Source of the DNA: Leptolyngbya sp. FACHB-8
GTDB lineage: Bacteria > Cyanobacteriota > Cyanobacteriia > Elainellales > Elainellaceae
NCBI RefSeq assembly: GCF_014695575.1
Contig: NZ_JACJOO010000026.1
Span: forward strand, 1-32,960
DNA: 32,960 nt
Direction: 5' to 3'
The translations under genes and the position numbers were made by a program. The notes below the pieces were generated by a model. That model was not told the origin of the DNA. It was given only the letters and a program-made list of their open reading frames with translations, and did not search any database. Each line of letters opens with the position of its first letter. Within the stretch, counting starts at the first letter, position 1. This document shows, piece after piece, positions 808 through 32,855 of the stretch.

Positions 808-1932
808 ATGAAACGTCGAAATCTTTTAAATGCCGCAGCTTTGGGTGCCAGCAGTGCCGTAGCTATGGCGGCCTGTAGCCAGAACAGCACTGCAGGCACT
901 ACCACTGCATCAGCTGATGACTTACCCACAATTGAATGGGAAATGGCTACTAGCTGGCCCGTTTCCCTGGATACTATTTTCGGTGGGGCACAGGTTTTGA
1001 GCGATCGCCTTGCAGCGTTAACCAATAACAAATTTAAGATTACTCCTCGGGCAGCCGGCGAACTGGCCCCCCCTCTGGAAGTGCTGAATGTTGTCTCCCA
1101 GGGGGCAGTTCCCTGTGGGCACACCGCCTCTTATTACTATTTGGGTAAAAGCCCGGCTTTGGCCTTTGGAACGACAGTGCCCTTTGGCCTGACCCCACAG
1201 CAGCAAAACGCCTGGCTCTATGAAGGAGGCGGCTTACAGCAACTTCAAGATTTGTATGCCAGCAAGTTTAATGTCATCCAATTTCCGGCGGGTAACACTG
1301 GAACTCAGATGGGGGGATGGTTCCGCAAGGAAATTACATCTCTAGCAGATCTGCAAGGACTAAAAATGCGGATTCCGGGACTGGGGGGCCAGGTGATGGC
1401 GAAGCTGGGAGTTACCGTACAAAATTTGCCGGGGGGTGAAATTTTCCAGGCATTGCAAACGGGTGCGATCGATGCTGCTGAATGGGTTGGCCCCTATGAC
1501 GATGAGAAGTTAGGACTCTACAAAGTTGCCAACTATTACTACTACCCGGGCTGGTGGGAACCGGGGGCGACCCTGGAAGTACAGGTCAACCTGAATGAGT
1601 GGAAGAAGTTGCCGCCATCCTATCAGGCGGCTCTGCAAACGGCTGCCTATGAAGCGAATCTCACGATGCTGGCTCGGTATGAGTCCCGCAACAATGAGGC
1701 GTTGCAAAAGCTGACGGAGAATGGTGTGCAGCTACGGTCCTACGGCGAGGAGATTATGACAGCGGCTGAGTCTGCCGCCTTTGCCCTCTACGATGAGTTC
1801 GCGGGTAAGGACGCGGATTTCAAAGCGGTGTATGACGGATGGAAGCAGTTTCGCGATCGCGTCTACGCCTGGAATAACCTTAATGAGGCGAATTTTACCC
1901 GCTTCACTTACAGCAAACTGAATACCAAGTAA
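808..1932 (+). CDS. TRAP transporter substrate-binding protein (DctP family)
   Basis: Periplasmic receptor of a tripartite ATP-independent (TRAP) importer that hands an organic anion to the DctQ/DctM membrane pair. 374 residues. The N-terminus has a twin-arginine-like start (RR at 3-4), a hydrophobic stretch and a lipobox-like AMAAC with Cys23, so it is probably a lipoprotein anchored outside the plasma membrane. The mature part has DctP hallmarks: KMRIPGLGG, whose Arg usually clamps the substrate carboxylate, and [15 protein letters not shown] followed by an aromatic run. It most resembles the branch annotated for mannitol/chloroaromatic or 2-oxoacid uptake; the Synechocystis glutamate TRAP receptor is in the same family. 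The true substrate cannot be read from the sequence. No clear ribosome site precedes ATG 808. It is transcribed convergently toward the dctM-like gene. Confidence 0.92.
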
Positions 1933-1952
1933 GTTGCTGAAAATCTTTAAAG

Positions 1953-1983
1953 AACTGGTGCAGCATAAAATACTGCACCAGTT
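1953..1983 (+). terminator. Rho-independent terminator of the TRAP receptor gene
   Basis: AACTGGTGCAG (1953-1963) and CTGCACCAGTT (1973-1983) form an 11-bp perfect stem with a 9-nt A/T-rich loop, running into TTTTGTG. It starts 20 bases after the receptor stop codon. Confidence 0.75.
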
Positions 1984-2132
1984 TTGTGTGAAATCTTATG
2001 GTCTGAATTCCAAACTTGGAAGATAGGTTGCCCAGAAGTTCGTATCCCTATCCAATGCTTATGGATTAACGATACCCATTACCCAATACGGATAGTCTTC
2101 TCATTTTTAACAGAATTCTCTGTCAATACTCT

Positions 2133-2207
2133 GGACAGTTTTTCTAAAACCCTTGATTTTGCGTGCGCGAAGCGCACGCAAAATCAAGGGTTTTAGAAAA
2201 ACTGTCC
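2133..2207. repeat. Perfect 36-bp inverted repeat, GAA loop
   Basis: Arms 2133-2168 and 2172-2207 are exact reverse complements of 36 bases around the loop GAA; the apex reads GCGTGCGC-GAA-GCGCACGC. It is the longest perfect palindrome in the window and lies between the convergent dctP-like and dctM-like genes. Lack of any mismatch over 36 bp suggests recent origin or active correction. Confidence 0.9.
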
Positions 2208-2222
2208 GAACTAATGAAACAT

Positions 2223-2280
2223 GTGAATGGGGTGTGGTGAAGGGGGGCACGACACATCCCTTTCACCACATCCCATTCAC
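2223..2280. repeat. Near-perfect inverted repeat at the 3' end of dctM-like gene
   Basis: The arm starting GTGAATGGGG at 2223 pairs with the arm ending CCCATTCAC at 2280 over about 23 bases with two mismatches. It begins about 12 bases beyond the dctM-like stop codon. It may help end that transcript, but no T-tract is obvious. Confidence 0.7.
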
Positions 2281-2292
2281 TACCGGACGCTG

Positions 2293-3627
2293 TTATTGAA
2301 ACGATAAATCGACTAGCCAGCGAACGGTTTGTGGAAAGATAATCACGATCATTAATACTAAAAATTGCAATGCCATAAACGGCAATGCACTTCGGTGAAT
2401 ATCCACTGTGCTCACTTCCTTAGGAGCCACACTTTGCAAGTAGAAGAGCGAGAAACCGACAGGAGGTGAGATAAAGGCAGTCTGTAGGTTGATGGCCATA
2501 ATTACCCCAAACCAGACCATATCAATTCCCAAGGCTTCGGCAGCAGGTACGAGTAGAGGCATGGCGATAAAGCAAATCTCGATGAATTCGAGAAATACCC
2601 CAAGGGCAAAAATCACCAGGTTGCTGACAATTAAAAAGCTGAGGTAGCCACCGGGCAGGTTTACCAGCAGCTCAGTAATGAGTCGTTTTCCTCCTAAATC
2701 GTCGAATACCAGACTGAACAGTGACGAGCAGAAGAGAATCATTAAGACGAGAGCGGTAATCACCGCTGTCGAATGGGCAGCATCGTGAATGAGCTTTTGA
2801 TTCCAGCGGCGATTCATAACCGCGAGTAAACACGCACCGACGGCACCTACTGCGCCTGCCTCTGTTGGAGTCGCGAACCCGAAGAAAATGCTACCGAGAA
2901 CGGCAAAAATTAGGATGATGGGTGGTAGGACGGCCTTCAAAACTTTTTTGAAGAGAGCCGCTCCTCCAATGTCTCGCACTTCCAGGGGCAGGGCTGGGGC
3001 TATTTGCGGCTTTATGAGAGCCAGAATCAGCACGTAAAGGGCGTAGGAGCCGGACAGCATGAGCCCTGGAATCAGTGCCCCCAGAAAGAGATCACCTACC
3101 GAAACCCCAATCTGGTCACTGAGTACCACCAATACCAGGCTGGGGGGAATGAGCTGGGCCAGAGTTCCCGATGCGATGATGATCCCTGCCGCCAGTTGCT
3201 TGTCGTAGCCATAGCGGAGCATCACGGGGAGGGATAGTAGGCCCATAACGATGACGGTAGCGGCGACAACTCCGGTAGTTGCGGCCAAGAGCGTGCCTAC
3301 TACAATCACGGCTAGAGCCAACCCACCCCGGAGCCGCCCCATAAGGATGCCAATGGTTTCCAATAACTCCTCGGCAATGCCAGATTTTTCCAGCACGGCT
3401 CCCAGAAAGACGAAGAAGGGGATCGCCAACAGGGTGAAGTTTGACATGGTGCCGAACCAGATGTTGGGCAGCAACAACAAACGGTTCAGGTCAAACGCAC
3501 CAACGGCGAGACCAATGCCGCCAAAGATCAGAGCTGTACCCGCAAAAGAAAAAGCAACGGGATAACCCGTAATCAAGATGACGAAAAAACCGACGAACAT
3601 GGCGATCGCCAGCCACTCATACCCCAT
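2293..3627 (-). CDS. TRAP transporter large permease subunit (DctM family)
   Basis: Main membrane subunit of the TRAP importer, coupling substrate entry to a Na+ (or H+) gradient. 444 residues, usual for DctM, with about 11-12 hydrophobic segments. Family signatures include [10 protein letters not shown] near the start, [19 protein letters not shown], the [16 protein letters not shown] segment and [17 protein letters not shown] chose ATG 3627 because GAGG lies six bases upstream; a GTG two codons earlier (3633) is the alternative. It is transcribed after the DctQ gene, 206 bases downstream, with a hairpin at 3743-3809 between them, so the two are probably co-transcribed with possible differential expression. 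Confidence 0.93.
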
Positions 3628-3742
3628 AACCACCCCTCACAACACCATCTAAATAACAGCGAACAGGCTGGTTGTGTGGAATTATTGCTGGACAACCAAC
3701 TTGTCTTCGATGGACACGAACGATATTTTTCATAGTAATTGG

Positions 3743-3809
3743 GATATGTTTGAGTGCTTCAAATGTCTATGCGTAAAATGCATACATACCTCAAGCTCTC
3801 AAACATATC
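3743..3809. repeat. Inverted repeat between dctQ-like and dctM-like genes
   Basis: GATATGTTTGAG (3743-3754) and CTCAAACATATC (3798-3809) are perfect 12-base reverse complements separated by 43 bases. The position inside the presumed permease operon could let it protect or attenuate mRNA and set the ratio of small to large permease. That role is inference. Confidence 0.65.
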
Positions 3810-3832
3810 GGTCGAAGTATGTTCATAGTGGT

Positions 3833-4450
3833 TTATTCATAGGGAAGCTGCTCTGTGTCTTGCTGGATTTGTTCTGTAACAGTGTTGTAACCCAGTAATA
3901 CCGCTGTGTACTTAATGCTCTGAGAAATGGCCTGCAGTAACAGTAGGGCTAATCCAACTAGCACCATAGCCTTGATGGGAGCCCGAGGTAATCCATTGGC
4001 GTCTGAAGACACTTCCCACGGGCCCCAGGTGCCATCCGGCAGCCGGCCCCAAGATGCCAGCACAGGATTAAAGGTGACATACAAGCCAAGGATGCAGAAG
4101 GGAATGAGAAACAGTAAGGTACCCAACAGATTGACCCAGGTGCGGCGGCGATCGCTCCAATGGGCGTACCAGAAATCCACTCGCACATTCTGGTCATGCT
4201 TGAGAATGTAAGCAAAGCCCAGCAAGAAGAGGATCGCGAAGAGGTACCATTGCAACTCAATGAGGACGTTGGAGGAAAGCTGAAGACCAATAAAGCGGCC
4301 AACATAACGAACTAGAACGTTATAAAAACTAATGGCGATCGTTAAAACAACCAACCCTACCGATAGCTGCCCGACCCAGTCTGTGAGTCGGTCAATGGCT
4401 TCAGATAACCGTAATAGAGCCCGTACAGGGCCTAAACTTCTTCTGTGCAA
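3833..4450 (-). CDS. TRAP transporter small permease subunit (DctQ family)
   Basis: Small membrane subunit that pairs with DctM. 205 residues, four predicted transmembrane segments. It carries the family motif ELQWYLFAILFLLGFAYIL followed by the charged KHDQNVRVDF. The start is read as TTG 4450 (frame opens with MHRRSLG): AGAGGA stands eight bases upstream, an in-frame TAG lies just above, and no ATG or GTG alternative exists before the first membrane segment. The C-terminal tail beyond the fourth membrane segment is hydrophilic and glutamine/glutamate rich. First gene of the minus-strand permease pair. Confidence 0.9.
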   Translation of the reverse strand: MHRRSLGPVRALLRLSEAIDRLTDWVGQLSVGLVVLTIAISFYNVLVRYVGRFIGLQLSSNVLIELQWYLFAILFLLGFAYILKHDQNVRVDFWYAHWSDRRRTWVNLLGTLLFLIPFCILGLYVTFNPVLASWGRLPDGTWGPWEVSSDANGLPRAPIKAMVLVGLALLLLQAISQSIKYTAVLLGYNTVTEQIQQDTEQLPYE

Positions 4451-4541
4451 AGTGCCTATCCTCTAAAGCCGATGAGAAAAATTGATGGTCATCAGAATAC
4501 AGCAGTGGGTCCACTCTGATGAAACTTCCTGGGGAAATCTT

Positions 4542-4787
4542 ATCGAGGCTTGGTTAAGGGCATTTTCGAGTGCTCCGTATAGCATTCGAAAACGCCCCTT
4601 TTGGCGTGGGCTTCGTGCCTACTAAAATAACCTCAGTTCGGGTTAAGGGCTTTTTCGAGTGCCGCGCGACGCGCGGCACTCGAAAAAGCTCATTGTTGCG
4701 TGCGCGAAGCGCACGCAACAATGAGCTTTTGGGCTTATCCCGAACTGAGGTTAAAATAGGCGATTCAGCTTATTTCGCATAGATGTT
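4542..4787. mobile_element. Decayed copy of the palindromic element, split by a younger copy
   Basis: The flanks of the intact copy at 4629-4752 are themselves a degraded version of the same element. The left part (about 4542-4628) carries GGTTAAGGGCATTTTCGAG and CATTCGAAAACGC as in hairpin A, then GGCGTGGGCTTCGTGC as in hairpin B. The right part resumes after the duplicated AAAAT (from 4758) with the TTCAGCTTAT block found at the same place in the copy at 32691-32814. Removing 4629-4757 rejoins one continuous, mutated element ending next to the pentapeptide gene stop. Outer ends are approximate. Confidence 0.6.
4629..4752. mobile_element. 124-bp composite palindromic element, copy 1 (MITE-like)
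   Basis: Outer arms 4629-4647 and 4734-4752 pair over 19 bases with one mismatch (AACCTCAGTTCGGG... with ...CCCGAACTGAGGTT). They enclose hairpin A (arms 4649-4667 and 4671-4689, perfect 19 bp, loop GAC) and hairpin B (arms 4690-4705 and 4709-4724, perfect 16 bp, loop GAA), giving a cloverleaf-like fold. The direct repeat AAAAT flanks it at 4624-4628 and 4753-4757, as expected of a target-site duplication. A second copy of identical length is at 32691-32814. No coding potential, so movement would need help in trans. Confidence 0.8.
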
Positions 4788-4789
4788 AA

Positions 4790-5680
4790 TTAGGCTGTAC
4801 GCTCCTGGGGAAAACCTGTATGTTGAAGCCGGCAGTAGCCCCGACTCAGGGGCGAATTGACGACACGCATCTCAGGGGTGAGGCGAACACCTGCAAGGTT
4901 GGCACCTGTCAAATTGACGTCCGTTAAATCAGCTTCTTGCAGATTGGCATCGCTCAGGTTGGCATGGCTTAAATCAGCTCGCATGAGAGATGCTCGATAG
5001 AGATTAGCAGCATGTAGATCGGCGGCGGTTAATGTAGCAACGCGCAGATAACTATTGCTGAGATTGGCAACACTCAGATTCGCCCGGTCTAGATTGACGC
5101 CGCTGATCTTGGCTCCGCTTAAATCAACCCCATCTAAATCAACCCCATGTAAATCGATGCCGTTGATGAAGGCTTTACGCAACTGCACTCCTGTTAGCCT
5201 TGCCCCAGTTAAATTGGCACCGCTGAGCTTGGCTCCTGTCAGGTTTGCCCAGGCCAAATTGGCCTTCTGCAAATCGGCTCCCCGCAGGTTGATCCCACAT
5301 AAACGTGCTGCACACAGATTTACCTCTGGAAGCTGGGCTTCCCGCAGATTAACTCCCGTTAAAATGGCCCCACTCAGGCTGGCTCCTGTTAATTTGGCCT
5401 TGACTAGGTACGCTCCCGTTAAATTTGCTTTGGTAAAATTTGCCTCGCTGAGATTGGCTTGCCCCAGCTTGGCATAGGTCAAATCTGCACCATAGAAAAA
5501 GGCACCCACCAGAGAAGCTCCCGTGAGAACCGTACGCGTCAGGGTAGTGAAGGACAAAAATGCTCCATCCAAAATAATGCCGCTTAAATTTAGTTCTGAT
5601 AAATCGGCCTCGGCTAATTCCACTCCAGCAAAGTTCCGTTCTCCAGCGGCGTAGCGTGCCACGAGTTCATTGATGTTCAT
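4790..5680 (-). CDS. Pentapeptide-repeat protein
   Basis: 296 residues. From about residue 18 to 265 the protein is a nearly unbroken run of A(D/N)LXX-type five-residue repeats (for example ANLTGAKLSGANLTGARL), which fold into a right-handed quadrilateral beta-helix. The short N-terminus (MNINELVARYAAGERNF) is the usual entry to such solenoids, and a 25-30 residue non-repeat tail closes it. No signal peptide or membrane segment, so probably cytoplasmic. Cyanobacteria encode many such proteins, mostly of unknown function; nothing here marks a gyrase-protecting type. Start ATG 5680 has GGGAGG six bases upstream. It lies 60 bases downstream of the kinase gene on the same strand and may share its transcript. 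Confidence 0.93.
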   Translation of the reverse strand: MNINELVARYAAGERNFAGVELAEADLSELNLSGIILDGAFLSFTTLTRTVLTGASLVGAFFYGADLTYAKLGQANLSEANFTKANLTGAYLVKAKLTGASLSGAILTGVNLREAQLPEVNLCAARLCGINLRGADLQKANLAWANLTGAKLSGANLTGARLTGVQLRKAFINGIDLHGVDLDGVDLSGAKISGVNLDRANLSVANLSNSYLRVATLTAADLHAANLYRASLMRADLSHANLSDANLQEADLTDVNLTGANLAGVRLTPEMRVVNSPLSRGYCRLQHTGFPQERTA

Positions 5681-5740
5681 CCCTAACCTCCCGAGGTGAA
5701 TTGAAGTGACAAACCTCTACAAGGTGTTGAGCAACGGGCT

Positions 5741-8470
5741 CTATGGTCGATGGGTGTGAAGTGGTAAATCCACCGTAAAGCACGTTTGCTTAGCATTACT
5801 TGTGACGTTAATCGAACCGTCTAAGTATTGTACCAATCGCTTCACCAATGCCAATCCTAGCCCTGTACCACTATGTTTCCAGGGGTCGTGGGAGGGAATG
5901 CGGTAAAACTGCTCAAAGATGTGGGGTAACTCGTGGGGAGGAATCTCTGCCCCTGTATTGGTGACGTATAGGCGAATACGCGATTGTTGAGACAAGGATT
6001 CAACTAGCTCGGCCTTAACGATAATTTCTTCGCCAGCGGGCGTAAACTTGTAGGCATTGGTGAGTAGCTCATCAAACACACGGTTGAAGGTGAAGAGATC
6101 GGTGACGATGAGCGGTAGATCTGGGGGGATCTCAACCCAACAGACCTGTTGATGTTCTTTAAATCGTTCTTCAAAGGTTTCGATAATTTGGGGAAGCCAG
6201 TCTTGCAGATGGAAGATGCTGGAGATAAAGGGTTGGGTTTCAGCATTGATCTGCTGGAGCAGCAACAGGTCATTGATCAGGTTGATTTCGCGATCGCACT
6301 CATCCCGCAGAATGTTCAAACACCGCTCAATTTTAGGGTGGATGGGCTCACCATTTTGCCGCAGCAGTACATCCATCAATTGAGCAGACATTTTGATGCT
6401 GGAAAGAGGAGTGCGCAGCTCATGGGAGGTGGTGCTGAGGAAATCATCTTTCAGCCGATTTAATTTTTCTAGCTCGCGAATTTGGGTTTGAGCGGACTGG
6501 TAGAGCCGGGACTGGCGAATGGCGATCGCACACTGTTTCGCCACCTGCTGCACCAGTTGTACCTCCCGCTCATCAAAGACTCGCTCCTTCCAGGACAGCA
6601 GCTTTAGATCCCCTAAAATGCCCTGCTCATCATCGACGATGGGGTGGCACAGGATAGCCATCGGCTCCGAATTTTTGTGAAAGAGCTGAGAGCAAAACTG
6701 TCGATACTCTCCCTCCATCAGCGGGGCGTAAACTTCTGGGTAGTTTGCCATAGAAATAACGGTTCCCAGAAGCGATGAGCTCGCATCGGCGTACTCATAA
6801 CTCACGGTTGCCTTCTGCTGTTCAAGGTTATAGAGGCTGGCATAACAAGTATGGAGATTTAAGGCTAGCCCCAGTTCTTGTACAGCCGTTTGAAGAATTG
6901 CCTGCTCGCTGAGCGTGCCATGAATTCTGTCGGTAATGTGTCGTAATACGGCTTCTGAACCCAAGGACCTCTGCAGTTGAATGGTCCGTTGGCGTACCTC
7001 AAATTCCAGATCGGTGTTCAGCTTTTGCACCTGCTGGTACAGCTCGGCTTGTTGAATCGCAACAGCCAACTGGGTTTCTAACCGTTGCAGCATGGCTATT
7101 TCCCAGTCTTGCCAGGGATGGTTAAAAGCACATTGATGAACAATCAAGAGCCCCCAAATTTGCTCCGGTTGAGATTTTGGGGAAGGTGATAGATCACCCA
7201 CAGGACTTGCCCTTGGCAACCCTTTCGATAATCGCTGGTTTTTGAGCGATCGCGGGCTTGTATGCAGGATGGGAATAACCAGTTGGGATTTGACATGAAA
7301 GGTTTCGAGCAGTTGCACGTAGGCTGGATCTAAGTTGGATTGTGAGATGTTGGCGATCGCCTGATACTGCCCCTGTTGGTAGGGCTGAATAAAACGCCGC
7401 TGCTCTATCCCCACATCTCCAATTTCCCAGCCCAGAAGCGGTGGATAGGTTGGGGAGCAGGACTCGACCAGCACAGATCCAGAACTGCCAGATAGGGTGG
7501 GGCGGTAAATAATGACGCGATCGGCCCCCAGCATCTCTTGAACCTGGTGGACCGTGGTTTGCAACACTACTTTGAGATCTAATGATTGGCGAATCGCCTG
7601 GGTAACTTCTTCTAGCAGTTGTTCTTGCTTTAACTGAGAGGCCAGAGCGTCTTCAAAACGCTGGCGATCCGTTACATCATGAACGATGGAGTAAAGGAGT
7701 TCGCGGCCCTGAAGATGCAGCAGGCTGGAATGTACCTCTACCTGACGAATCTCCCCTGAAGCGAGGCGATGGGGGAAGTAACAGCAGCAAGGTTGATGGG
7801 AATGATGGTGATCCAACTCCCCATGCATGAGGTCAGTGGGCAGACGATTAATGTCTGAAATTTTCATCTGCCGTAATTGTTCTAATGGGTAGCCGTAGAA
7901 GGCGATCGCCGCCGAATTGGCGTCCACAATCATGTCCGTTCTCAGGTCACTCAGCAGTTTAATGGTTGGACTTGAGTCGAAGGATTGTCGATAAAATTCC
8001 AGCGCGTCTTGCTGAATGCGTTGGCTGTGGATGTGTTCTGTAATATCCGTCACTGAAAAAACAACGTGGTGGATATTTCCTACCACGTCTTTTAAGGGGG
8101 AGCCATTAATAGATAGGTATCGTCGCTCCCCCGTCGGCCACTCAATGGCGTGCTGTATGTCAAAGACCGCATTCCCGGTTTGCATAACCCGTACGAAAGG
8201 TAGCTCTTCGTTCGGGAAAGGATGTCCTTCAAAATCTGTAACCTTCCAGCCAAGGGAATTGTACGATCGCTGCGTGACTTGAGATTTTTGAAGACCTAAT
8301 ATCTTTTCTGCAACATCGTTTGCAAAGACGATGTTGCCCTGGGTATCCACTACAGTGATGGCAGCTGCGCTAGTTTGAAGAATGCCTGCCAGTAAATCCT
8401 GGCCAAGGAGTTCATCCGTATCGGATACGAGTGATGGCTCAGTCTGGAATGAATCGATCGATGAAACCAT
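5741..8470 (-). CDS. PAS-PAS-GAF-GAF sensor histidine kinase, soluble
   Basis: 909-residue two-component sensor. Domains in order: PAS about 22-148, PAS about 155-270, GAF about 285-475 (with a low-complexity insert near 405-435), linker coiled coil about 475-505, GAF about 508-655, HisKA with phospho-acceptor His683 in STTSHELRTPLSS, and HATPase about 765-905. The HATPase shows Asn805 in the N box (LLTNAYKFTP), an NTG in place of the usual DTG of the G1 box, IFEQFYRIPSHDPWKHSGTG, and GTGLGLALVKRL. No transmembrane segment, so it senses a cytoplasmic cue. The GAF domains lack an evident bilin-binding cysteine motif, so a phytochrome role is not supported. No receiver domain is fused and no regulator is adjacent; the regulator at 22462-23076 is far away. 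Start ATG 8470 has GGAGG seven bases upstream. Confidence 0.92.
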   Translation of the reverse strand: MVSSIDSFQTEPSLVSDTDELLGQDLLAGILQTSAAAITVVDTQGNIVFANDVAEKILGLQKSQVTQRSYNSLGWKVTDFEGHPFPNEELPFVRVMQTGNAVFDIQHAIEWPTGERRYLSINGSPLKDVVGNIHHVVFSVTDITEHIHSQRIQQDALEFYRQSFDSSPTIKLLSDLRTDMIVDANSAAIAFYGYPLEQLRQMKISDINRLPTDLMHGELDHHHSHQPCCCYFPHRLASGEIRQVEVHSSLLHLQGRELLYSIVHDVTDRQRFEDALASQLKQEQLLEEVTQAIRQSLDLKVVLQTTVHQVQEMLGADRVIIYRPTLSGSSGSVLVESCSPTYPPLLGWEIGDVGIEQRRFIQPYQQGQYQAIANISQSNLDPAYVQLLETFHVKSQLVIPILHTSPRSLKNQRLSKGLPRASPVGDLSPSPKSQPEQIWGLLIVHQCAFNHPWQDWEIAMLQRLETQLAVAIQQAELYQQVQKLNTDLEFEVRQRTIQLQRSLGSEAVLRHITDRIHGTLSEQAILQTAVQELGLALNLHTCYASLYNLEQQKATVSYEYADASSSLLGTVISMANYPEVYAPLMEGEYRQFCSQLFHKNSEPMAILCHPIVDDEQGILGDLKLLSWKERVFDEREVQLVQQVAKQCAIAIRQSRLYQSAQTQIRELEKLNRLKDDFLSTTSHELRTPLSSIKMSAQLMDVLLRQNGEPIHPKIERCLNILRDECDREINLINDLLLLQQINAETQPFISSIFHLQDWLPQIIETFEERFKEHQQVCWVEIPPDLPLIVTDLFTFNRVFDELLTNAYKFTPAGEEIIVKAELVESLSQQSRIRLYVTNTGAEIPPHELPHIFEQFYRIPSHDPWKHSGTGLGLALVKRLVQYLDGSINVTSNAKQTCFTVDLPLHTHRP

Positions 8471-8718
8471 ACTGTCGCCTCCATGATTGCGCAGTGCCGA
8501 TTTATGGCCCTTCGGCTGAGAGGAAACACCCTTACTGATATATCTACATTTACACCGTTTTTATACGGATGCCATCCGCTAAATTATGAGACTTTAACAG
8601 AATGAATCCGCATATGCTTAGTATTCCCCCGGAACTCATTACTCACGCAGATGGAGATTATCAGTTTTGCAAAGGATAGAAGTCAATTGCCTACCTTCTC
8701 TAGAACTACCCGTTGTTG

Positions 8719-8778
8719 AATAGAGCGATGAAATAGGATACAGCACTGTGGTTCTACGTCCCATTTCATCGCTCTATT
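8719..8778. repeat. Inverted repeat, 16-bp perfect arms
   Basis: AATAGAGCGATGAAAT (8719-8734) pairs exactly with ATTTCATCGCTCTATT (8763-8778) around a 28-base loop. The left arm and the bases before it resemble a segment near 19508-19532 (TTG-TGAAT-GAGCGATGAA core), so this may be a dispersed repeat. Confidence 0.75.
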
Positions 8779-8941
8779 TAGCCGCACCCAAAACTAAGTG
8801 AGGAACCATCATAAAATATGAGAGCTACAATACTGTGCTACCTGTAAAGGAGACGGTACAACACTTTGAGCTCTCTGTTTCATTAAGTTGAGCTACGTAC
8901 CTCTAGCCCTTCAGCGAATACCATTTTTACATGACGCTATA

Positions 8942-8984
8942 CAGAATGGGATGGGTAGTGCGCAATGCCACCCTTCCCATTCTG
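8942..8984. repeat. Inverted repeat with TGCGCA-containing loop
   Basis: CAGAATGGGATGGGT (8942-8956) pairs with the arm ending CCATTCTG at 8984 with one mismatch. The apical sequence GGGTAGTGCGCAATG (8953-8967) nearly matches GGGTAGCTGCGCAATG in the hairpin at 27063-27124, although the arms are unrelated. Confidence 0.7.
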
Positions 8985-9410
8985 CGCAACTTCATATTAA
9001 TTCGATATATACGGGTTGCCCAATTTCCGGGCTGGCGTTAGCCAACACATTTCCTAAAAAAGAGGTTAATAGCTAGAGGCTTCTAGCAGGGTTGTTTTTC
9101 ATTCTCGGAGAAGTATTTTTGCCGGAAAAGTAAATTTTAAAGAGACACTTCAATTGATTCTGGACAAAAGCTACCCAATATAGTTCCTGTAGAAAAATAC
9201 ATTCTTCAATATCTTCTAAGCCACAGTTTTTTCTGTCACTAAGCAGGGATATGAGGCGTGATTGGGTTGATAGGTTAGATGGGCAAAATTCTCAATGAGC
9301 CTGTTGTTCAGGGTGAATCTGCCAGCTTCACTCTTAACAAAGGTTCATGCATTTCTAAGCTGTTGATCCCCTTCCTGTCGCCATAACATTCCTATCTAAT
9401 TTATGGAATG

Positions 9411-9451
9411 GTTTTTGCAAGGTGGAGTGGCGCAGCCCACCTCGCAAAAAC
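9411..9451. repeat. Hairpin just upstream of the DUF3419 ribosome site
   Basis: GTTTTTGCAAGGTGG at 9411 pairs with the CCCACCTCGCAAAAAC arm ending at 9451 with one mismatch. It ends four bases before GAAGG (9455-9459), the ribosome site of the gene starting at 9468. Depending on where transcription starts, it could be a 5'-UTR structure that affects translation or mRNA stability. Confidence 0.65.
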
Positions 9452-9467
9452 TATTGAAGGTTCCTAT

Positions 9468-10568
9468 ATGATGACCCGTGACATTACTAGCCGTGCTAGT
9501 TTTTCCCAAATTCGCTATGCCCAGTGTTGGGAAGATGCTGACATTTTGCTCGAAGCATTGGATTTGCAACCGGGGGAGACGTACCTGGGGATTGCCTCTG
9601 CTGGAGACAACATCCTCGCCATGCTCAGCAAAAATCCGAGTCGGGCGATCGCTGTTGACCTTAGTCCTGCCCAACTGGCTTGCCTGGAACTGCGAGTTGC
9701 CGCCTATCGTGAGTTAGAACATAAGGAATTGTTGGGATTGATGGGCTCAACGGATTGGGGCGATCGCCTTGCCCTCTACCAGCGCTGTCGAAGCCTGCTA
9801 TCGAGCGATGTCCAGTATTTTTGGGACCATCATTCCGACCTGATTGAAGCTGGCATTGGACAGGCCGGAAAGTTTGAGCATTACTTCACGTTGTTTCGTC
9901 GCTACGCGTTGCCATTGGTGCATTCACGGCAACGGGTGGAACGGCTGCTGCAAGGAGGCACCCTGGAACAGCGCCGCGCCTTCTACCGACGAGAATGGGA
10001 TACCTGGCGTTGGCGGACCATGTTTCGCGTGTTCTTCTCGCGCACGGTGATGGGGCAGATGGGACGCGACCCCGAATTTTTCAAGTACGTGGAGGGGAAT
10101 GTGGGCGATCGCATCTTAGCCCGCACTCAGTATGCCCTCAGCGAACTTGATCCTGCCAAAAATCCTTACTTGCAATGGATTCTGACGGGGCACCACACCA
10201 CTGCCTTACCCTATGCCCTGCGTCCAGAACACTTTGATGCTATCCGCCAAAACCTGGATCGGCTAGAGTGGCACTGCATGGCCCTGGAGGACGTGCTGGA
10301 TCGAGTGGACGATCACACCATTCACCGCTTTAACCTGAGCGATATTTTTGAATATTTGTCGCCGTCTAATTCTCAGGCGCTACTGCAACGGCTGGTGCAG
10401 TCTGCGGTGCCCGGTGGTCGGCTGGTTTACTGGAACATGCTGGTTCCTCGTTCTCGCCCGGAAGCTATGGCAGATCAGTTATTGCCCTTAACGGAGTTGA
10501 GCGATCGCCTATTTACACAGGATAAGGCGTTTTTCTACAGTGCCTTTGTGGTGGAACAGGTGCAGTAA
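9468..10568 (+). CDS. DUF3419 family protein, BtaA-like aminocarboxypropyl transferase fold
   Basis: 366 residues. The N-terminal part has the family's conserved RYAQCWEDADILLEAL and the S-adenosylmethionine-binding-like LGIASAGDNIL (SAGDN at 44-48), then VDLSPAQLACLELR. Further on are ILTGHH, LSDIFEYLSP and YWNMLVPR. In characterised relatives (BtaA), the enzyme moves a 3-amino-3-carboxypropyl group from S-adenosylmethionine to diacylglycerol, the first step of betaine lipid synthesis. Many family members are untested, and no BtaB-like N-methyltransferase is adjacent, so the product here is uncertain. I start it at ATG 9468 because GAAGG lies eight bases upstream; the longer frame from GTG/ATG 9408 would begin inside the hairpin 9411-9451. 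Confidence 0.85.
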   Translation: MMTRDITSRASFSQIRYAQCWEDADILLEALDLQPGETYLGIASAGDNILAMLSKNPSRAIAVDLSPAQLACLELRVAAYRELEHKELLGLMGSTDWGDRLALYQRCRSLLSSDVQYFWDHHSDLIEAGIGQAGKFEHYFTLFRRYALPLVHSRQRVERLLQGGTLEQRRAFYRREWDTWRWRTMFRVFFSRTVMGQMGRDPEFFKYVEGNVGDRILARTQYALSELDPAKNPYLQWILTGHHTTALPYALRPEHFDAIRQNLDRLEWHCMALEDVLDRVDDHTIHRFNLSDIFEYLSPSNSQALLQRLVQSAVPGGRLVYWNMLVPRSRPEAMADQLLPLTELSDRLFTQDKAFFYSAFVVEQVQ

Positions 10569-32684: not shown

Positions 32685-32690
32685 AAATTT

Positions 32691-32814
32691 AACCTGAGTT
32701 CGGGTTAAGGGCGTTTTCGAGTGCCGCGCGACGCGCGGCACTCGAAAACGCTCATTTTGGCGTGCGCTTTGCGCACGCCAAAATGAGCACTTCAGCTTAT
32801 CCCGAACTGAGGTT
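32691..32814. mobile_element. 124-bp composite palindromic element, copy 2 (MITE-like)
   Basis: Same length and plan as copy 1 (4629-4752), about 110 of 124 bases identical by hand alignment. Outer arms 32691-32709 and 32796-32814; hairpin A 32711-32729/32733-32751 (loop GAC); hairpin B 32752-32767/32771-32786 (loop TTT). The direct repeat AAATTT flanks it at 32685-32690 and 32815-32820. Stem differences from copy 1 keep pairing in both inner hairpins. Confidence 0.8.
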
Positions 32815-32855
32815 AAATTTAAGGAATTTTTTAGGGGTTATAGGCCCCAGCCCTT

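Follow-up and report, generated by a model that had tools for sequence, protein, structure and literature searches.

A 124-bp palindromic unit lying inside what looks like an older copy of itself raises three questions: whether such a unit moves as a discrete piece, which enzyme would move it, and how the arms and tips of its hairpins change once it has spread. We addressed them starting from a window of 32,960 nucleotides, which is the entire contig C19 of a 6.93-Mb genome of Leptolyngbya sp. FACHB-8 assembled in 95 contigs.

The nested pair and its surroundings

The window holds two full-length copies of the unit, one of them nested at 4540–4787. Their parts are listed below by window position.

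4540..4623, forward strand: left part of the older, decayed copy, from the joined-flank alignment
4624..4628, no strand: left AAAAT target duplication, preceded by T
4629..4752, forward strand: inner (younger) MITE, 124 bp, ends matched to IS982 elements
Left end of the inner MITE, forward strand: IS982 3' end type, GGGTTAAG
4629..4647, forward strand: left terminal inverted repeat, 19 bp
4649..4689, no strand: hairpin 1 (H1), arms 4649–4667 and 4671–4689, tip 4668–4670
4690..4724, no strand: hairpin 2 (H2), 16-bp core arms 4690–4705 and 4709–4724, tip 4706–4708
4734..4752, reverse strand: right terminal inverted repeat, 19 bp
Right end of the inner MITE, forward strand: IS982 5' end type, GGGATAAG
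4753..4757, no strand: right AAAAT target duplication, followed by A
4758..4787, forward strand: right part of the older copy, from the joined-flank alignment
32685..32690, no strand: left AAATTT target duplication of the second copy
32691..32814, forward strand: second full-length copy, of another subfamily, with G at element position 23 and H2 tip TTT
32815..32820, no strand: right AAATTT target duplication of the second copy, whose joined flanks match related empty sites in L196 and L195

The 124-bp element is nested in an older copy of itself. The sequence-only reading had described AAAAT direct repeats bracketing a 124-bp element at 4629–4752, and both the coordinates and the repeats are as it gave them. 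It had also taken the sequence outside the repeats, once joined, for an older copy of the same element. The joined flanks, with one AAAAT, are indeed collinear with the 32691–32814 copy from GGTTAAGGGC through the right end, and this alignment scores 48 against a maximum of 12 in 300 shuffles. The left flank alone scores 38, as do the flanks in swapped order; the right flank alone scores 12, within the range of its own shuffles (maximum 13), so that the right part is convincing only when joined and in order. Compared with the family consensus, the joined flanks score 46, and the next best place in the window, at ~2040–2140, scores 26.5 and is a different palindrome with a common hairpin core. 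Without its insert, the older copy comprises 119 nt; the alignment has a 5-nt gap at the first hairpin, and the initial 12 bases of the left repeat are unaligned and unrecognisable. A BLAST search with the joined flanks returned 28 rows spanning the junction in loci of the same genome, which overlap and therefore represent fewer distinct places. The pairing of hairpin 2 in the inner copy can be extended outward over the 3' arm of hairpin 1, to 4684/4730, and the target duplication of the 32691 copy is 6 bp long (AAATTT).

The nested element sits between a DctQ ORF (3833–4450) and a pentapeptide-repeat gene (4790–5680). The former belongs to a set of TRAP transporter genes at 808–4450, with DctP on the forward strand and DctM and DctQ on the reverse strand. 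An imperfect palindrome with 49-bp arms, a 3-nt spacer and 82% arm complementarity occupies positions 110–210. The earlier statement that the window contains no transposase is true of the 19 ORFs scanned with Pfam (45 ORFs of at least 100 aa are listed).

A dispersed family with IS982-type ends

From the letters of the window, the unit had been taken for a discrete, non-autonomous piece of MITE type, and three places had been named in which to look for support: the rest of the genome, sites lacking the element but keeping one duplication, and a transposase with the same terminal repeats. All three yielded evidence for that reading.

The unit is present far beyond the window. A motif composed of the left end and hairpin 1, allowing up to 2 mismatches, gave 330 matches in its own genome (170 + 160; control, 2), and the pattern AACCTSAGTTCGGGTTAAG gave 152 exact matches (reversed control, 0). 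Since some elements give two motif matches (at least three pairs among 100 listed places share one element), the copy number of about 300 is only a rough figure. From the collected loci, which represent a part of the whole-genome total, we parsed 140 distinct copies; 117 of them are exactly 124 bp long and comprise 107 distinct sequences, and a single 124-bp sequence is present at four places. The unit is short, carries 19-bp terminal inverted repeats and has no coding capacity, and its dispersed copies are flanked by target-site duplications, as in other MITEs.

Target duplications of at least 4 bp flank 112 of the 140 copies, compared with a mean of 4.3 and a maximum of 10 for shuffled flanks. 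They measure 4 bp in 76 copies, 5 bp in 31, 6 bp in four and 11 bp in one; 28 copies have none. The AAAAT duplication first noticed in the window represents the 5-bp class, 4 bp being the usual length in the family. Among the 107 copies with 4–5 bp duplications, T precedes in 102 and A follows in 102, which defines the target T-N4/5-A. An alternative parse, with an element TAACC...GGTTA and a 2–3 bp duplication, was rejected because exactly repeated duplications such as ATGCA, AACCA, ACGA and AATAC have a last base other than T.

Seventy-one copies had enough flank for their gene context to be assigned: 28 lie between convergent genes, 27 between tandem genes, 3 between divergent genes and 5 within ORFs, with 8 unclear. 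The raw count between divergent genes is small, which would fit selection against promoter insertion. Some copies are closely set, such as those at 1503–1626 and 1713–1836 of L007 and two about 150 bp apart in L041, and L353 carries element-like halves within a 224-bp span.

Empty sites were sought by comparing the joined flanks of copies that have a duplication and enough flank with part of their own genome; a match had to cross the junction and cover 15 bp or more to either side. Related (paralogous) empty sites, with one duplication, were found in this genome for 9 of the 111 copies tested, including both window copies. Six of the nine are gapless, and 5–10 gap positions occur in the alignments of the nested window copy, L056 and L007. 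The clearest matches, all without gaps, are L146 with L366 (99% over 97 nt), L042 with L380 (91% over 97 nt) and the 32691 copy with L196 (83% over 84 nt); two of the matched loci, L366 and L380, belong to another palindromic repeat, P2. A same-genus genome aligns with window positions 2000–9500 in fragments only, at 67–77%, and is too diverged for orthologous sites. The duplications, the dispersed copies and the paralogous empty sites agree with a unit that moves as a discrete, non-autonomous piece.

The transposase with matching terminal repeats belongs to the IS982 family, has the ends AACCTGAGTTCGGGATAAG / AACCTGAGTTCGGGTTAAG, and was found in related genomes. A narrower repeat pattern occurs in 10 of 60 genomes and a wider one in 120 of 291 Cyanobacteriia genomes, our genome being included in both counts. 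Single-ended repeat matches in G057 and G030 adjoin IS982 transposase remnants, which fall below the family cut-off because they are partial, Pfam detecting the first alone. One transposase fragment has relatives in 81 of the 291 Cyanobacteriia genomes. At 28 of the 30 listed transposase loci, a pair of ends lies 850–1300 bp apart with no more than 4 mismatches per end. Position 15 of these ends is A at the transposase-5' end and T at the 3' end in 26 of the 28 paired loci (L110 and L113 are the exceptions). Apart from scattered mismatches, the 5' and 3' ends read ...GGGATAAG and ...GGGTTAAG, respectively, and the MITE has one of each. The position-15 asymmetry is thus common to the IS982 elements and the MITE; with the 124-bp copies of this genome (G000) oriented by interior sequence, 3 of 77 have T at this position in both ends.

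In a named set of 80 loci, 45 were inspected, and 22 of these carry both ends with no more than 6 mismatches in total; the 14 loci without ends show less than 55% identity or are partial matches. The nearest relative in this set is the filamentous cyanobacterium LEGE 07170, which carries a transposase with 100% identity to that of the same-genus genome G001. Nodosilinea nodulosa PCC 7104 contains many IS982 copies with perfect ends; its loci L234–L246 include forms of 966 bp and 1068 bp with identical ends, a difference of 102 bp. The same-genus transposase (L107) scores 260.6 bits on the profile NF033520, for which the cut-off is 130, placing it in the IS982 family. Among 110 pooled IS loci, 42 are distinct elements with no more than 3 mismatches at each end, and 35 are Streptococcus matches with 31–36% identity. 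The duplications of the 22 IS elements in which they reach at least 4 bp measure 4 bp in 10 cases, 5 bp in 11 and 6 bp in one, and T before with A after the duplication is seen in 21 of the 22, as for the MITE.

The ends of the MITE therefore match autonomous IS982 elements of other cyanobacteria. In its own assembly, a search with the IS982 family profile gave a single match, of 23.7 bits (cut-off, 130), and a search by protein gave none at E 1e-20, an absence that is not absolute in an assembly of 95 contigs. A parental element in the same genome, which is usual in reports of IS982-derived elements and not part of their definition, was accordingly not found in this assembly. The weak match there (C91, L088), considered as a possible IS982 transposase, was set aside: it is below the cut-off and looks IS5-like by eye. 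Evidence for the partner comes from other species, and its shared ends and target rule suggest that an IS982 transposase would be the mover of the element; it may have been lost from this genome or may never have resided there.

Hairpin arms and tip orientation

Folded as single-stranded DNA, the window copies reach −63.9 and −61.2 kcal/mol, with z-scores of −15.9 and −14.1. The 124-bp plan is common to G000, G016 and G013, which represent three genera of one family. To compare arms, we used a hand-picked alignment of 37 sequences (23 of the 117 G000 copies of exact length, nine of the 23 in G016 and all five 124-bp copies parsed from G013), in which 96.7% of cells across the three genera are paired. 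Arm change on both sides was found in 185 cells, compared with 65 in shuffles and no more than 23 when the partners were slid, and of the 19 pairs that changed on both sides, 18 belong to the hairpins and one to the terminal repeats. A measure of further pair types was not above shuffles in this alignment (496 of 500 were as high). Among 48 nearest-neighbour pairs of G000 copies, 8 two-sided Watson–Crick changes were seen in the hairpins, where ~0.7 would be expected if the arms changed independently. One-sided hairpin arm changes in the same pairs numbered 53 and thus outnumbered the two-sided ones, indicating that the arms also decay freely. The terminal repeats showed no two-sided Watson–Crick change in these pairs and 3 two-sided changes without pairing.

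Other elements share these ends but not the two-hairpin interior, at 103 bp in G037 and G271 and at 164 bp in G009, which suggests that mobility does not depend on the hairpins.

Both orientations of the three-nucleotide tips are found. Among the 117 copies of exact length, the H1 tips are GTT in 44 and AAC in 25, TTC in 26 and GAA in 8, and GAC and GTC in 4 each; the H2 tips are TTT in 34 and AAA in 28, GTC in 21 and GAC in 6, and TTC in 9 and GAA in 6. The remaining tip types are rarer than these reverse-complement pairs. Two randomly drawn copies carry reverse-complement tips with a probability of 0.195 for H1 and 0.168 for H2, compared with at most 0.079 and 0.060, respectively, under column shuffles. 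Copies with a tip outside every tested reverse-complement pair were dropped from the tip tests. Among eleven copies identical outside the tips, H1 GTT/AAC and H2 TTT/AAA appear in all four possible combinations, and the two orientations are independent in the main subfamily (Fisher p 0.78). The minor orientation there accounts for 24 of 63 copies at H1 and 27 of 59 at H2, compared with a second base in no more than 10 of 69 copies at ordinary sites.

On a tree built without the tips, H1 GTT/AAC requires 18 steps (20.6 when shuffled) and H2 TTT/AAA requires 20 (20.7 when shuffled). In the control tree, from which the tested site and its partner were left out, nine subfamily-defining sites fit, with 1–9 steps versus about 29–36, and site 102 barely fits, with 9 versus 11.7. 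When only the 69 copies of the main subfamily are considered, each of the eight ordinary sites that vary is at the shuffled level too. The tree thus splits the subfamilies, resolves nothing inside them and cannot rank tip inversion against substitution; it was rejected as evidence that tips invert at a higher rate than the copies diverge, ordinary sites being equally at the shuffled level. The argument for the tips now rests on the frequency contrast and on the groups identical elsewhere. In our reading, a subfamily passes on its tip class, while tip orientation is much more prone to change than single bases are. Exchange between copies could also mix tip orientations.

Outside G000, the H1 centre in the 23 exact-length copies of G016, read from a listing in which two copies stand in reverse orientation, is A in 14, T in 8 and degenerate in one; this is a single-base difference and may be a plain transversion. 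The H2 tip of G016 is GTC in 15 and GAC in 2, so that H1 varies about evenly in this genome and H2 rarely, and the H2 tip of G013 is GAC in 3 and GTC in 2.

Inverted tips are also found in palindromes other than the MITE, two of which were sampled in its own genome.

Window 2123..2217: P3 repeat, TCAATACTCTGGACAG...CTGTCCGAACTAATG, ~94 bp; 40 of 259 candidate places in its own genome scored
L140:639–733: P2 repeat, TATAGC...GCTATA, 95 bp; 40 of 178 candidate places in its own genome scored

The repeat at 2123–2217 shows compensated arm changes and inverted tips, and has a hairpin core similar to hairpin 2 of the MITE; P2 serves as an insertion target of the MITE (L042, L146). The tips are GAA and TTC in 18 and 9 loci for P2 and in 26 and 2 for P3 (30 loci each), and GAA is over-represented in these samples, each made up of the 30 loci that best match a query with a GAA tip. 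P2 orientation takes 5 steps on its tree, compared with 7.7 when shuffled (minimum 3). A first, small control with non-MITE palindromes of the same genome gave 10 inverted and 4 same-orientation pairs. In the single-contig genome G202, of which 400 kb were sampled, 33 palindrome pairs had the same orientation, 23 were inverted and 14 were of other kinds; within-family pairs are not independent, and IS982-type ends were left unmasked. When the two of the eight families that mostly lie near such ends were excluded, the counts were 26, 19 and 10. The second single-contig genome, G271, contained no orientation-informative palindrome pair. An assembly artefact as the source of the inversions was considered unlikely, inverted pairs being present in single-contig G202 as well. 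Given P2, P3 and the G202 palindromes, tip inversion is probably not special to the element and belongs to general replication biology.

Origin of the inversions and related elements

We consider it very probable that the unit is a MITE served in trans by an IS982 transposase, with a young copy nested in an old one and with tips most likely inverted by template switching. An IS982-family transposase would recognise the 19-bp ends of the non-autonomous 124-bp element and insert it into T-N4/5-A, the inner 4–5 (sometimes 6) bases being duplicated; the young copy at 4629–4752 would have entered AAAAT inside the older one in this way. During replication, DNA polymerase would switch template between the two arms of a hairpin, which would keep the arms complementary and invert the 3-nt tip, and the same switching would act on other palindromes.

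REP/BIME repeats of the RAYT type are palindromic, lack target duplications and depend on an HUH (RAYT) transposase for their movement. It is hardly credible that the family is such a chromosomal repeat, a terminator or a structured RNA, and that recombination or a RAYT system has spread it in place of terminal-repeat transposition: the strong folding of the window copies and the gene contexts of the 71 copies would suit this view, but it is contradicted by the exact boundaries, the 4–6 bp duplications, the empty sites and the ends common to IS982, and a scan of the window with Rfam gave no family at gathering score. More room is left for causes of arm and tip change other than general template switching. 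Selection on the hairpins, through protein binding or RNA, could keep the arms perfect by later, independent compensation, and the 96.7% pairing over three genera and the excess of two-sided cells over shuffled and slid controls are what it predicts. Block inversion of a 3-nt tip, however, is not something that selection on structure produces by itself, the two-hairpin interior is missing from other elements with these ends, and further pair types do not rise above shuffles; we consider this explanation unlikely.

Arm co-change and tip inversion might instead arise from transposition itself, for instance when a hairpinned intermediate is replicated. The 11 otherwise identical copies with all four tip combinations look as if the tips had been reset near insertion, but P2 and P3, which are not IS982 families, are also tip-inverted (they may be mobile themselves, so this is not decisive), the G202 pairs include inversions even after the family exclusion, and in G016 only H1 varies about evenly. 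We judge this origin to be rather improbable. Template switching remains the most likely cause of the inversions, and switching between the arms of inverted repeats is described elsewhere as yielding homogenised arms and inverted spacers (PMC8604942, PMC8794818). Small hairpin-linked inversions are known from chloroplast DNA (PMC2903610), and loop-only inversions also occur in bacterial rRNA, with 69 cases in the whole data set of a report that calls tip inversion combined with compensatory change in rRNA hairpins extremely rare (PMC8794818). The likeness lies in the homogenised arms and the inverted spacers or loops; they deal with rRNA and microRNA genes, yeast coding genes and plastid spacers, whereas here the hairpins belong to transposable-element copies of one genome. 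Among the open-licence papers listed in our literature searches, we saw no report of tip inversion in bacterial MITEs or cyanobacterial repeats.

IS982-derived MITEs are already known from Cardinium, a bacterium of a different phylum from the cyanobacteria, and the present family adds another. MITECca01 and MITECca02 of Cardinium cOegibbosus derive from ISCca4, an IS982-family element, and 169 copies of MITECca01 are reported (PMC9769881). They resemble our family in being short, transposase-less, bounded by IS982 ends, numerous and mostly intergenic, and they too are found inserted in other mobile elements; they measure ~240 bp and have an intact parental IS in the same genome (PMC9769881). 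In contrast, the present MITE is 124 bp long with two near-perfect hairpins, and no parental transposase was found in its assembly. The nearest autonomous relatives, the IS982 elements of Nodosilinea nodulosa PCC 7104 and LEGE 07170, share the asymmetric 19-bp ends, with 0 or 1 mismatch per end. Cyanobacterial IS982 elements also have the same 4–6 bp duplication and T...A target, but they are about 966–1068 bp long and encode a transposase, and no match was found between MITE interiors (positions 20–105) and 59 IS loci at E 1e-3. A further cyanobacterial MITE, Nezha, was reportedly described by Zhou et al. in 2008. Nezha has been attributed to ISNpu3-like elements (PMC3049150), and its likeness to the present family is that both are cyanobacterial MITEs.

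The IS982-type ends can be used to search for MITEs across cyanobacteria, and more than 100 near-identical copies with tips apparently free to vary provide a data set on tip inversion and arm homogenisation. A bolder idea, to which we give little credence, is that the hairpins are working parts of the element and that each transposition or replication step re-rolls both tip orientations independently. If this were true, a 124-bp design kept in three genera of one family, with arms turned over in a compensated manner, would be a natural recorder of template switching in bacterial transposition.
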